Source: Nitrososphaerota archaeon (GTDB lineage: Archaea > Thermoproteota > Nitrososphaeria > Nitrososphaerales > Nitrosopumilaceae). From it: a stretch of 43,064 bases of DNA. Where the stretch lies: assembly GCA_016871975.1 (NCBI GenBank), contig VHBM01000003.1, positions 1-43,064 of the forward strand, read 5' to 3'. Numbering within the stretch: position 1 is the first letter of the stretch; every line of letters begins with the position of its first letter. Position numbers and translations under genes: made by a program. Below are positions 2,650 to 9,069 of the stretch, in pieces. The notes under the pieces were generated by a model, which was given only the letters and a program-made list of their open reading frames with translations, made no database searches and was not told the origin of the DNA.

Positions 2650-3402
2650 TTGATGGTTCAAGTAAAGATAGTTCCATCACATCCTGCACTAATTATAGAA
2701 GGGAAAAATCGGTCTTTGGTTGTAACAGATCTGCATATTGGTTTTGAGGCTAATTTGGCTGCAAATGACATCTTTGTTGGAAAAAACACTACAGTAAATG
2801 AGACAATTTCAGAGCTTGAGAAAATAATTGAAAATACTAGAGCGGATTCTTTGATACTTTTAGGCGATGTAAAATCAAGCATAAAGTCGATTTCAAAAAA
2901 CGAGTGGGACGAGATTCCTTTGTTTTTTAATAAAATAAAGGAAAAATGCGACGTTACACTAGTTCCTGGGAATCATGATGGAAATATCCAGAAATTAGTT
3001 CCTGATGGAGTAAGTATGATTAGCTCAACTGGTTTGGTTATAGAAAACATGTTACTTACACATGGTCATACCATGCCGTCTGAGAATTTTTCACATGTTG
3101 ATAAGATAATCATGGGACATGTTCATCCAGTATTTTTTGATGAAGACTCTGTTTTAAATGGAAATAGAGTATGGGTTACAATAAAGACAGAAAAAGAGAA
3201 AGTGTTTCCTTCTGCATCAGGTGAGCTTGAGATCCTAGTTGTTCCATCATTTAACAAGTACTTTTATGCAACATACAAAAGGCAATACAAAAGATCAATT
3301 TCACCAATCATAGAAAAGACAAAAGATGCATTATCTGCAAAAATTCTTACACTTGATGGAACGATAATTGGTGATGAGTCTATACTAAAGCAGGTATTTT
3401 AG
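2650..3402 (+). CDS. Metallophosphoesterase (MJ0037/ICC-like)
   Basis: DLHIGFE, GDVK, PGNHDG, THGH, GHVHP metallophosphatase motifs. Confidence 0.9.
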   Translation: MMVQVKIVPSHPALIIEGKNRSLVVTDLHIGFEANLAANDIFVGKNTTVNETISELEKIIENTRADSLILLGDVKSSIKSISKNEWDEIPLFFNKIKEKCDVTLVPGNHDGNIQKLVPDGVSMISSTGLVIENMLLTHGHTMPSENFSHVDKIIMGHVHPVFFDEDSVLNGNRVWVTIKTEKEKVFPSASGELEILVVPSFNKYFYATYKRQYKRSISPIIEKTKDALSAKILTLDGTIIGDESILKQVF

Positions 3403-6400
3403 TTAATGGTATTGTATGGCTCAAGTGGCTCTTTTGTTGTCTCATTTTTCTGCAGCCACTCTAGTGTCTTGACAAAAGAATCTGCAAGCTCTGGCGTTGT
3501 AAGAACAGGTATTCCAAGCTCAACTGCCTTGCGCCTAATCTGATATTCATCATAAAGCATCCCAACGTATTTTTCTAGAGTCGATGTGCTTGGAATGTTT
3601 ATTATAAAATTGATCTTTCGCTCATACAATAAGTCAGCAATGTTTGGTTTTCGCTGTGGCTCACTAATTTTGTGAACAATTTCAACATCGCCAATTTTTT
3701 CAGAGAAAAATTCTGCGGTGTGCTCTGTTGCAAGGATTTTAAACCCAAGGTGTCTTAGCGCTGCAACAGTTGGCAAAAGCTTTTCTTTATTTTCTGCCCC
3801 ACCTATTGTAATTAGTGCAGTTCCTTTAGTTGGCAGATTATACCCAACAGAAATCAATCCCTTTGATAGCGCATCATAAAAGCTAACTCCAAAACATGCA
3901 GCCTCACCAGTTGATTGCATCTCAACTCCTAGTACCATGTCTGCGCCTTCAAGCTGCATAAATGAAAACTGTGGTACTTTGATTCCATAGGTATGGATTT
4001 TTTTCCACATATCATGCGGTAATTTAGGAAGATCTTTTCCTAAAATTGCACGAGATGCAAGACTAATCAAATTAACTTTTACTAGCTTTGAAACAAAAGG
4101 CATAGAACGTGATGCACGAATGTTTAGCTCAATTACATAAACATGGCCGTCATTTATCAAAAACTGCAAATTAAACGGACCCTTTATGTGAAATGCCTTT
4201 GCAATTTTATCGGTATAGTCTGTTATTGTTTCAATTATCTTGTTGTTTAGTCTCCATGGAGGAATGCACATCATTGCATCACCAGAGTGAACACCTGCAG
4301 ACTCGATGTGCTCAACTATGGCACCAATTATGACATGTTTTCCATCACAGATTCCATCAACGTCAACTTCGAGTGAGTTTAGCATGAACTTTGATATCAC
4401 AACTGGATGATCAGGTGATACTATTGCAGCCTCACTAACATACTGTTTTAGCTCCTCTTGTGACCAAACAACCTTCATTGCAGCACCACTTAGAACATAA
4501 GATGGCCTTACAATCACAGGATATCCTACCTCCTGTGCAAAGTTTTTTGCCTCACCAATTTTTGAAAATTCCTGCCATGGCGGCTGTTTTATGTGAAGCT
4601 GGTCAAGTATGCTGCTAAACTTGGAACGGTTTTCTGCCCTATCAACGTCTTCTGCACTTGTCCCAAGTAGATGAATTCCGCTTTTTGCAAGCTTTGGGGT
4701 TAGGTTGTTTGCAGTCTGGCCACCAACTGATGTAACTATGCCTTTAGTTTTCTCAAACTCTGTAATGTCTAGTATTCTCTCATGTGTGAGCTCTTCAAAG
4801 TAAAGCCTCTGGCAAATATCATAGTCTGTTGATACGGTTTCAGGATTACAGTTTACAACAGCTACGTTTTTTTCGCCATTTTCCTGCAGACCCCAGACCA
4901 TGTTTACTGTTCCCCAGTCAAACTCGACGCTGCTTCCTATCCTATATGGCCCTGCGCCAAGAACCATGACTCCCCGCTCTTTTTGCGTAACTTCCAAGTC
5001 ATTTTTGTTTCCGCCATATGTCAGGTAAAGATAGTTTGTCTTTGCAGGCCACTCTGCAGCTAGTGTATCGATTTGCTTTACAACTGGAATAATTCCAAGC
5101 TCTTTTCGCGTTTTCCTGATTTCTGATTCTTCTTTATTTTTTGCACGTGCAATTTGTCTGTCAGAGAATCCAAACTTTTTTGCCCGTGATAGCAATTGTG
5201 CATTAAGATCTTTTTCTTTAAGATCTTTTTCTATTTCAACAATGTTTTTTATTTTTTCAATGTACCATGGATCAATATCTGACAGTTTGTAGATTTTCTC
5301 AACACTCATTCCCTTTCGCAGTGCTGCCGCTACATAGTACAGTATTAGATCATCTGGTTTTGAAAGATGTTCTTCAATTTCTTCTTCGTCGTATGTTTTT
5401 CCATTGAGTCTATTCAGTACCAGTCCATCGTTTCCAATCTCTAGCATCCTGATTGCCTTTTGTAATGATTCTTCAAAGCATCGTCCTATTGCCATTACTT
5501 CTCCCACAGACTTCATTGTAGGTCCTAGTTTGCGATTTGCAAGCTCGAATTTTCCAAAATCCCACCGGGGGTGCTTGCAGACAATATAGTCAAGTGATGG
5601 CTCAAAACATGCAGTTGTGGATTTTGTAATTCGGTTTACAAGCTCTGGCAGGGTATAGCCAAGGCCAATTTTTGCAGACATGTATGCAAGTGGATATCCT
5701 GTTGCTTTTGATGCAAGTGCAGATGAGCGAGAAAGCCTTGGATTGATTTCAATTGCAGCAAATTTATCAGAATCTGTATCTAGTGCAAACTGGATGTTGC
5801 ATTCGCCAACTATTCCAACATGTTTTGTTGCTTTTAGTGCAGCAGTACGCAAAACATGGTATTCGCGATTATCAATTGTCTGAGATGGTGCAACTACGAT
5901 ATTATCACCAGTATGAACCTTCATTGAAAGAACATTTTCCATGTTGCAAACAATGACATTATTTCCAGAGTAGTCCTGCATTACCTCATATTCTATTTGC
6001 TTCCAGCTTCCAACATATTCTTCAATTAAAATTTGGCCTACCATGCTTGCAGAAAGACCACGCCCTGCAATCTCGTGTAGCTCGATTTCATTATACGCAA
6101 CACCTCCACCTTTTCCGCCAAGGGTATAAGCCACCCTCACAATTACAGGATAGCCAATCTCATTTGCAACAGCTTTTGCATCCTCAAATGAACGAACTGT
6201 CTTGCTTTTTAGAACTGGAATGCCACATTCAATCATAGAGTCTTTGAAAAGCTGCCTGTCCTCTGTTGCCTTTATTCCAAGAATTTGTGTGCCAAGTACT
6301 TTGACTCCATATTTTTTTAGTATTCCAAGTTCGTCTAGCTTTACTCCACAGTTTAGTGCAGTCTGGCCCCCAAATCCAAGCATCAGTCCATCTGGCCTTT

Positions 6401-6661
6401 CTTTTTCAATTATTGATTCAACATACTGTGGATTTACTGGAAGCAAGTATACCTTGTCTGCAAACCTTGTGTCTGTTTGAATTGTTGCAATGTTTGGATT
6501 AATTAGAATACTTTTCAGTCCATCTTCGCGAATTGCCTTGAGGCATTGGCTACCGGAGTAGTCGAATTGACGGTAGTTTAGCTACTTTCGCCAGCTTCTC
6601 CGATTTTTATTGCCCCACTTCCAAGAACTAGAATCTTTTTTAGCGATTCAGCTTTTGGCAG
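3399..6661 (-). CDS. carB: Carbamoyl-phosphate synthase large subunit; full product requires removal of a 20-nt insertion at 6567-6586
   Basis: The track ORF 3399-6446 is the body of CarB. Upstream in the 0 frame, CTG CCA AAA GCT GAA TCG ... GGC GAA [20 nt] TTC GAC TAC TCC GGT encodes (M)PKAESLKKILVLGSGAIKIGEAGE|FDYSGSQCLKAIREDGLKSILINPN. Length 3263-20 = 3243 nt = 1081 codons. Confidence 0.9.
6567..6586 (-). other. Candidate BHB intron (20 nt) in carB pre-mRNA: AGUAGCUAAACUACCGUCAA
   Basis: The insertion disrupts the conserved GE(A/G)GEFDYSG motif. It is flanked by a 4-bp central helix GGCG/CGUC (one G-U) and two 3-nt bulges AA^A and AA^U, with intron hairpin GUAG-CUAAA-CUAC. The predicted cuts remove exactly 20 nt and restore the frame. 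Confidence 0.8.
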
Positions 6662-7820
6662 CTCTGCCCTCCTCCATTAGATGTTTCAGCTCTTCAAAAA
6701 CAAACTCACAATCATAAGGTCCAGGTGATGCTTCTGGATGAAACTGTACTGCGATGATTTTTTTCTTTTTGTGTTTTATCCCTTCTACAGTTTTATCATC
6801 GGCGTTTGTAAACCATAATTTGAAATTTGATTTTTTAAGCGATTTTGGGTCAATGCAATAGCCATGGTTTTGGCTTGTAACGTACACCTGCTTGTTTTCA
6901 AGGTTAATGCAAGGCTTGTTTTGCCCACGATGGCCATATTTTAGCTTGTAAGTTTTTGCGTTTCCCGCAAGGCCTAGTATTTGTGCGCCAAGGCAAATCC
7001 CAAGTGTTGGGACGTTTTTTGAGATAAGTGATTTTGCAGTCTTGATTGTTTCTTTGCACTTTTTTGGATCACCAGGGCCGTTGCTAATTACAACACCTTT
7101 TGGGTTATAGGACAAAATTTTTTCAATTGTGGTATTCCATGGAACCTTGATTGCCTTGTATCCAATTTTTCTAACGTTTCGAATAATTGCATTTTTTACG
7201 CCAGTATCAATTACTACAACAGATTTGGGCTCGTTTCCAAAAACTTGATCATTTTTTGTTGATACTGTATTCATAAATTCTTCAGAGTTGTATTTTGGTG
7301 CCTTGGCAAGCTCACGCTTGACTTGGGTCTCGTCAATTGGAGTGTCAGATACTACCAAGGCAGCCATCATGACGCCAGATGTTCGAAGCTTTTTTGTTAA
7401 TTCTCTAGTGTCAATTCCTGAAATGCCTGGAATCTTTTCATTATACAGCCACTCATCAAGCGTTAGTGCAAGATTCCAGTGGCTTGCAATTGTAGATAAC
7501 TCATGGATTACCAGTCCGCGTATCTGGATCTTGTCTGACTCAAAGTGTTTTGAAATGCCATCATTGTCTTTTTGTGCAAGATCTGGTACGCCATAGTTTC
7601 CAACAAGTGGATATGTGAGTGTAAGAATTTGGCCGCTATAGGATGGGTCTGTCAGGGTTTCATTATACCCAACCATTCCTGTGTTAAAGACTAGTTCGCC
7701 AAAGACGGTTTTTGAATAACCAAAGCCACTTCCTTCAAAAACGGTGCCATCACCAAGAATCAGTTTTCCAAACTTGTTTACGTGTTTGGCTTTCTTTGTG
7801 GTTATTGTGACCCTCGACAA
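6648..7820 (-). CDS. carA: Carbamoyl-phosphate synthase small subunit
   Basis: Class I glutamine amidotransferase triad context (LGICLGAQ, QFHPEASPGP), CPSase small-subunit N-terminal domain. Confidence 0.96.
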   Translation of the reverse strand: MSRVTITTKKAKHVNKFGKLILGDGTVFEGSGFGYSKTVFGELVFNTGMVGYNETLTDPSYSGQILTLTYPLVGNYGVPDLAQKDNDGISKHFESDKIQIRGLVIHELSTIASHWNLALTLDEWLYNEKIPGISGIDTRELTKKLRTSGVMMAALVVSDTPIDETQVKRELAKAPKYNSEEFMNTVSTKNDQVFGNEPKSVVVIDTGVKNAIIRNVRKIGYKAIKVPWNTTIEKILSYNPKGVVISNGPGDPKKCKETIKTAKSLISKNVPTLGICLGAQILGLAGNAKTYKLKYGHRGQNKPCINLENKQVYVTSQNHGYCIDPKSLKKSNFKLWFTNADDKTVEGIKHKKKKIIAVQFHPEASPGPYDCEFVFEELKHLMEEGRAAKS

Positions 7821-7881: not shown

Positions 7882-9069
7882 TTATAGTGCCTTAAACTCT
7901 GCACTCCACTTGTAATAAGCGCGGATCATCTCAGATGAAACGCTTGGTTTTCTTCGCTCCATTATTTCCCTAAAATCAATCATTGTTAATTCTCTTGGCT
8001 GTGGTTTTGCATCTCCTGCTACTGGTTCTTTGTAGTTTGCCGAGGTAAACAGCTCATTTACAACTTTCATTTGTGCTGATTGGCAGACGTCTTTGATATC
8101 ACTTGCACTGTATCCATCAAATAGTCTTGCAAGCTCCAAGGTTTTGAGTTTGGCATCCTTTCTTAGTGGCGAGGTATACAGCTCAAAAAGATTTTGTCTT
8201 GCCTCAATGGTTGGCAGTGAGACATAGATTCTTTTTTGGAATCTTCGCAAAAATGGCCAGTCAAGGCTCCATGGCTTGTTTGTTGCACCAATTACGTATA
8301 GCATGAGGTCCTTTCCTTTTCCATTAACTCCGTCCATTTCTGACAAAAATTGATTCTTGGTTCTAACCTCGCCTCCTACCTCGCTGTTTCTTACGCCAAG
8401 AAGCGAGTCAACCTCATCAATAAACAATATTACAGGAACCTTTTCCTTTTCTGCATGGTCTCGTGCCATCTTGAATAGTTTTGAAACATTTTTTTCAGCT
8501 TCGCCAAGCCATTTGCTCATCATCGATGCTGCATCTACAACTATGAAATATCCTGCAATCTCACTTGCTGTTGCAGCTGCAAGTAGTGTCTTGCCACATC
8601 CTGGCGGTCCGTAAAGTAACAGTCCTCTTGGCCAGCCAAGTGGAAAAAGATCAGGTCTTCTGCTAGGATATACAATTGATTCACGCAAAGCGTTTTTTGC
8701 ATCATCAAGCCCTACTACTTCTTCCCAGCTGACATCGGGTTTTTCTTTCATGATTAGGTCTTCAAAGTCACGATTGTCTTTTGCAGCATTTCGTTCTTCA
8801 GGAGAAGCGTTTGGATCAACTGCCGGTTCTAGGTCATTGCCACGAAGCTCTTGCAGCGCCTTTATTCTACTTTGATAAGAGCGCATCCTTTCTGAATATA
8901 CAGAGTTTAGCTTGCTTGTTGGGTAAAGATGAAGTAGTTGCATTAGGGCATCTATTGCTTTTTGATAGTTTGCAATTGCCATGCCACGGGCACCTTGAGA
9001 ATCGCATTTTATTGCCTCAGAGGCATATTTGCTTGCAGTATTCTCTAGTTGTTGTGGTGCCATACTCAT
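7882..9069 (-). CDS. cdvC: CdvC / Vps4-like AAA ATPase with N-terminal MIT domain
   Basis: MIT-like helices at the N-terminus; GPPGCGKT Walker A, ILFIDEVDSL Walker B, AAA SRH. Confidence 0.9.
   Translation of the reverse strand: MSMAPQQLENTASKYASEAIKCDSQGARGMAIANYQKAIDALMQLLHLYPTSKLNSVYSERMRSYQSRIKALQELRGNDLEPAVDPNASPEERNAAKDNRDFEDLIMKEKPDVSWEEVVGLDDAKNALRESIVYPSRRPDLFPLGWPRGLLLYGPPGCGKTLLAAATASEIAGYFIVVDAASMMSKWLGEAEKNVSKLFKMARDHAEKEKVPVILFIDEVDSLLGVRNSEVGGEVRTKNQFLSEMDGVNGKGKDLMLYVIGATNKPWSLDWPFLRRFQKRIYVSLPTIEARQNLFELYTSPLRKDAKLKTLELARLFDGYSASDIKDVCQSAQMKVVNELFTSANYKEPVAGDAKPQPRELTMIDFREIMERRKPSVSSEMIRAYYKWSAEFKAL

Follow-up and report, generated by a model that had tools for sequence, protein, structure and literature searches.

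A probable ancient bulge-helix-bulge intron in the carB pre-mRNA of the archaeal class Nitrososphaeria

Introduction

How is a complete CarB protein made from a gene that is interrupted as written? In the window analysed here, a 43,064-nt stretch of contig VHBM01000003.1 from a Nitrososphaerota archaeon, carB is encoded on the minus strand in two pieces. Exon 1 (6587–6661) holds 25 codons from an apparent CTG start at 6659–6661 and translates as LPKAESLKKILVLGSGAIKIGEAGE, and exon 2 (3399–6566) encodes the CPSase large subunit, beginning FDYSGSQ and staying open for about 1,055 codons up to its terminal stop codon. Between GGC GAA and TTC GAC lie 20 nt (6567–6586; AGTAGCTAAACTACCGTCAA) that include an in-frame TAA at 6578–6580. 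The gene for the CPSase small subunit, carA (6648–7820, minus strand), overlaps the carB start, and a gene for a MIT-domain AAA ATPase resembling Vps4/CdvC (7882–9069, minus strand) is located directly upstream of carA.

The first-pass annotation took the 20 nt for a bulge-helix-bulge (BHB) intron that is removed by the splicing endonuclease EndA and closed by a ligase. Re-reading the sequence reproduces the insert, its coordinates, the frame and the in-frame TAA. Deleting exactly 6567–6586 yields the motif GEAGEFDYSGSQ, which is uninterrupted in intronless relatives, where the same 25 residues of exon 1 also occur. A second intact carB was looked for in the source genome, a draft assembly that is 86% complete, and none was found, leaving a single copy.

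Results

The junction region of the carB transcript has a minimum-free-energy fold of −24.1 kcal/mol (z = −2.9) that contains both helices proposed in the first-pass annotation. In this predicted fold, the central helix pairs GGCG of exon 1 (6589–6592) with CGUC of the intron (6569–6572), in agreement with the alignment, and the intron hairpin pairs GUAG (6582–6585) with CUAC (6573–6576), in agreement with covariation; these elements and those below are all on the minus strand. The two strands carry 3-nt bulges, AAA (6586–6588) on the 5′ side and AAU (6566–6568) on the 3′ side. Under the cut rule of the literature (AA^A and AA^U), EndA is predicted to cleave between 6587 and 6586 and between 6567 and 6566, which excises exactly 20 nt, and the predicted cuts coincide with the frame borders in all homologs. 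Further out, fold, alignment and codon usage point to an exon arm between AUCGGAG (6598–6604) and CUCCGGU (6552–6558). An outermost exon helix joins GGGGCA (6611–6616), seen in the fold and 91% paired across the alignment, to UGCCUC (6540–6545), indicated by fold, alignment and codon usage. The pairing of the exon arm therefore stands as first described, but its direct abutment on the 3′ bulge does not, as the two are separated by a short irregular stretch in which C-G, G-C and A-U pairs are interspersed with bulged bases. Rfam covariance models gave no match to positions 6300–6900 up to E = 1.

BHB-like geometry is common, so a single sequence is suggestive and not conclusive. Both strands of 843 kb, comprising 40 pieces of genome G008 and the window, contain 13,471 motifs by geometry alone. 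Requiring two joined open frames and presence in the predicted minimum-energy fold leaves 9, of which the most stable two are the two carB introns, while four decoy geometries passed through the same filter give 4–10 motifs each. No further coding BHB intron in these 843 kb rose above the decoy geometries. One 19-nt BHB-like candidate in G008 (L268, reverse strand, offset about 3955–3974 of the reverse complement) joins two ORFs at −19.1 kcal/mol, within the decoy range. It is the cross-genome comparison, and not geometry, that lifts the predicted carB BHB above chance.

A first search of 61 genomes revealed an insert at the same site in most family members and in both other species of the source genus, and an order-level survey followed, with more than 100 loci retrieved for inspection. 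In total, 117 insert-bearing loci carry 74 distinct inserts of 20–40 nt. The ends are unchanged in longer inserts (40 nt in L149, 33 nt in L143 and 30 nt in L239), so the intron loop tolerates growth. Across the class, about 131 of 205 matched genomes are intron-bearing by the count in the covariance-model survey table (251 searched). Among the matches listed, E-values are at most 4.2e-18 for intron-bearing and at least 4.3e-14 for intronless genomes, a gap consistent with the fetched sequences. Eight families have the insert (f1, f3, f5, f8, f10, f11, f12 and f20), the last of them outside the order and inside the same class; f2, f4, f6, f7, f9, f14, f15 and f17 were insert-free in the few genomes sampled from each. 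Through named relatives, f1 was assigned to Nitrosopumilaceae and f8 to Nitrososphaeraceae. A survey of 300 genomes across the phylum found no carB with the intron outside the class; the sole match there (G431) spans 66 nt, the insert-free length, and was not counted.

Among named records, the insert is present in Nitrosotalea (L055) and Nitrososphaeraceae MAGs (L059 and L060), and absent from Nitrosopelagicus (L053 and L057) and Nitrosopumilus limneticus (L056). It is also present in G111 and G087, which we take to be N. viennensis and N. gargensis, and in G003 and G143, presumably Cenarchaeum symbiosum and N. adriaticus; G118 and G021, presumably N. maritimus SCM1 and N. brevis, are insert-free. 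These six identities serve as leads only. The comparison of carB among relatives suggested in the first-pass annotation thus finds the insert in many genomes and precisely absent from others, where the reading frame is uninterrupted. A disabling mutation in a carB pseudogene, or an assembly or sequencing artefact, could be suspected from a gene that is broken as written in an incomplete draft genome. However, inserts recur at the same site in more than 100 genomes, single-contig ones among them, which excludes an artefact; in addition, exon 2 is fully open and conserved, the genome shows no second carB, and the structure covaries. We attach almost no credence to this explanation. The earlier conclusion that an artefact is unlikely holds, although its argument from BHB geometry alone was weak.

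Pairing in the central helix and the intron hairpin stands at 98.7% across 29 distinct sequences. Two-sided changes number 26 where 6.5 are expected (reached by 0 of 500 shuffles), and sliding the partner by 1–3 columns reduces pairing to 15–56%. RNAalifold recovers the same structure unaided. The f5 family has a GGUG/CACC central helix instead of GGCG/CGYC. Insert sequence and length vary freely, and the putative BHB is maintained by compensatory changes. At all 96 distinct loci, the predicted cut sites are the reading-frame borders defined by the protein, and at least three of four hairpin pairs are possible at those borders. The central helix has four of four pairs at 76 of these loci and three of four, with one terminal mismatch, at the other 20; the BHB lies within the minimum-energy fold at 64 of the 96, with a mean pair probability of 0.74.

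The exon arms carry a second signature of selection on the RNA. In 48 intron-bearing f1 genes, paired third codon positions (ATC, GGA, GGC, GAC, TAC and TCC) are 96–100% fixed and unpaired neighbouring codons (GAA/GAG and TTC/TTT) vary freely, while 26 intronless genes mostly have ATT, GGT, GGA, GAT, TAT and TCT at the paired codons. As read from these alignments, the synonymous-site constraint tracks the intron, not the protein. An in-frame stop occurs in 28 of 28 distinct inserts with a length divisible by three, which owing to relatedness are not 28 independent events, and inserts of other lengths shift the frame; unspliced message would therefore not yield CarB.

Programmed translational bypassing, for example in phage T4 gene 60, also involves a non-coding hairpin gap inside a gene and needs matched take-off and landing codons. 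If ribosomes skipped the carB insert in this way, or by frameshifting over the hairpin, the RNA would stay unspliced, and, like bypass sites, the insert combines a hairpin with an in-frame stop. Archaeal cbf5 introns were formerly taken for frameshifts (PMC2738675), so bypass and intron look alike in DNA. Nevertheless, the insert lengths of 20–40 nt occupy all three frames, and exon 2 is preceded by a variable codon (CAA, AAA, TAA, CAG, AAT and TAT) that does not match the take-off codon GAA/GAG, so that carB shares the intragenic hairpin gap of the gene 60 type and not its matched codons. The conserved exon–intron central helix and two 3-nt bulges are features of an EndA substrate. Since codon and length vary without rule, we consider bypassing very improbable.

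Splicing, in comparison, would draw on enzymes that the source genome encodes: a predicted two-subunit EndA and an RtcB RNA ligase. The RtcB gene is itself in pieces, and an intron there was rejected, as the pieces are contig ends. In the proposed mechanism, the carAB transcript would form a 4-bp central helix flanked on either side by a 3-nt bulge and topped with the intron hairpin, with pairing between the two exons holding the structure. EndA would cut each bulge after its second nucleotide, RtcB would seal the exons to give GGC GAA UUC GAC, and CarB of normal sequence would then be translated from the joined exons. Covariation, the match between predicted cuts and frame borders, the frozen exon arms and the presence of the enzyme genes together lend strong support to the claim that carB contains a BHB intron spliced by EndA and a ligase. 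Cleavage and ligation are steps that we infer, as is the failure of unspliced message to give CarB. We counted against splicing the gap between arm and bulge, the terminal mismatches at 20 of 96 loci and the presence of the BHB in the minimum-energy fold at only 64. Ribosomes loading on exon 1 would also compete with folding, and in many intron-bearing genomes carB has no canonical start to account for its translation. Taken together, the insert is very probably a genuine BHB intron in the pre-mRNA, of ancient origin and lost several times, with EndA excising it and RtcB sealing the exons.

On a tree of 144 CarB exon-2 sequences, insert presence is strongly clustered and changes 9 times, at least 6 of them on supported branches. 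The tree is most simply read as an early gain, which would make the intron ancient in the class, followed by several clean losses, of which that in Nitrosopumilus and related lineages is the largest. Members of three genera (g4, g12 and g20) share one intronless clade, so the intronless allele may have spread between genera. Later breaks in carB were considered as second introns and rejected: a TGA in G008 (L288) and frame changes in G003 (L298) and G146 (L299) resemble point lesions or small indels in the ORF listing.

The idea that splicing gates pyrimidine or arginine synthesis found no support, and the intron was lost several times. Stated more narrowly, a real intron could act as a regulatory gate whose splicing efficiency determines how much CarB is made compared with CarA. 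The stops in every insert divisible by three, weak start codons in many intron-bearing genes and retention of the intron in a 0.8-Mb genome (G006) all fit this view, but the stops could stem simply from selection against misread protein, and repeated clean losses speak against a gate. A regulatory role thus seems unlikely.

A Shine-Dalgarno-like element (GGAGGAGGG, 6667–6675, minus strand) precedes the CTG start of carB. The start position in intron-bearing f1 genes is CTG in 38 of 52 and ATG in 11, and the 26 intronless f1 genes counted all have ATG or TTG. Intron-bearing f8 genes have ATG (13), TTG (10), TCG (10), GCG (4) or other codons, and 30 of 42 have a Shine-Dalgarno-like site close by. 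Non-canonical starts occur at codon −25 before the intron in the window (6659–6661), L143, L144, L153 and other loci; intronless L066, L232 and L233, outside f1 proper, likewise have no canonical start nearby. The association of start codon with intron status points in one direction in nearly all pairings (3–4 for and 0 against; median p 0.125), which is not significant because independent pairs are too few. The carA–carB overlap, for example ATGCCAAAAGATGA, puts carB in the +1 frame, and carB may be initiated either at unusual codons or by reinitiation or +1 frameshifting from carA. At several f8 loci (L141–L144, L147, L149, L150 and L153–L157), the C terminus of CarA extends into a long lysine/alanine-rich tail, and this tail terminates within the carB start region, which lacks a canonical start. 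A CarA–CarB fusion by +1 frameshift, or coupled reinitiation, is conceivable in f8.

It is possible, though doubtful, that splicing precedes translation: weak or non-standard starts (CTG, TCG and GCG) near Shine-Dalgarno-like sites, together with the intron stops, would prevent ribosomes from unwinding or reading across the BHB until EndA acts, and ATG or TTG starts would return once the intron is lost.

Discussion

The closest known system is the BHB intron of cbf5 pre-mRNA in Crenarchaeota, which likewise is short and lies within coding sequence (Watanabe 2002; Yokobori 2009, PMC2738675). It is also lineage-wide with several losses, occurs in hosts with hetero-oligomeric EndA, and is cleaved after the second bulge residue, ahead of the third (PMC2738675). 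The carB intron differs in gene and lineage, and the two have no detectable sequence or position in common; we therefore rejected homology with the cbf5 intron. Splicing of cbf5 was demonstrated by cDNA, whereas that of carB is predicted here from DNA sequence. The BHB introns of archaeal tRNA and rRNA have the same motif and probably share EndA and RtcB with carB, but they sit in structural RNAs, whereas the carB exon arm consists of protein-coding codons with fixed synonymous sites. In Haloferax, the HVO_1309 BHB is an EndA substrate in mRNA, as proposed for carB, but it is located in the 5′ UTR and joins no coding exons, whereas that of carB would join two (PMC7714728).

As late as 2020, a paper listed cbf5 as the sole further archaeal mRNA with a reported BHB intron (PMC7714728), and earlier predictions in Sulfolobus and a rudivirus are unproven (PMC2738675). 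No earlier report of an archaeal carB or carbamoyl intron was found in the open-access literature searched. BHB introns in mRNA as such are already known from cbf5; the probable carB BHB intron would be a new, clade-wide case.

In many genomes, CarB has probably been mis-annotated as a truncated or frameshifted protein. Comparison can draw on numerous natural relatives with and without the intron, and the order of splicing and translation in a prokaryote becomes testable; splicing before translation, if true, would be one solution to mRNA splicing under coupled transcription and translation. After cbf5, carB would be the second gene family with a spliced archaeal protein-coding message. Such a second case, located in a central enzyme and conserved among ammonia-oxidizing archaea, would mean that archaeal pre-mRNA splicing extends beyond Crenarchaeota and beyond a single gene.
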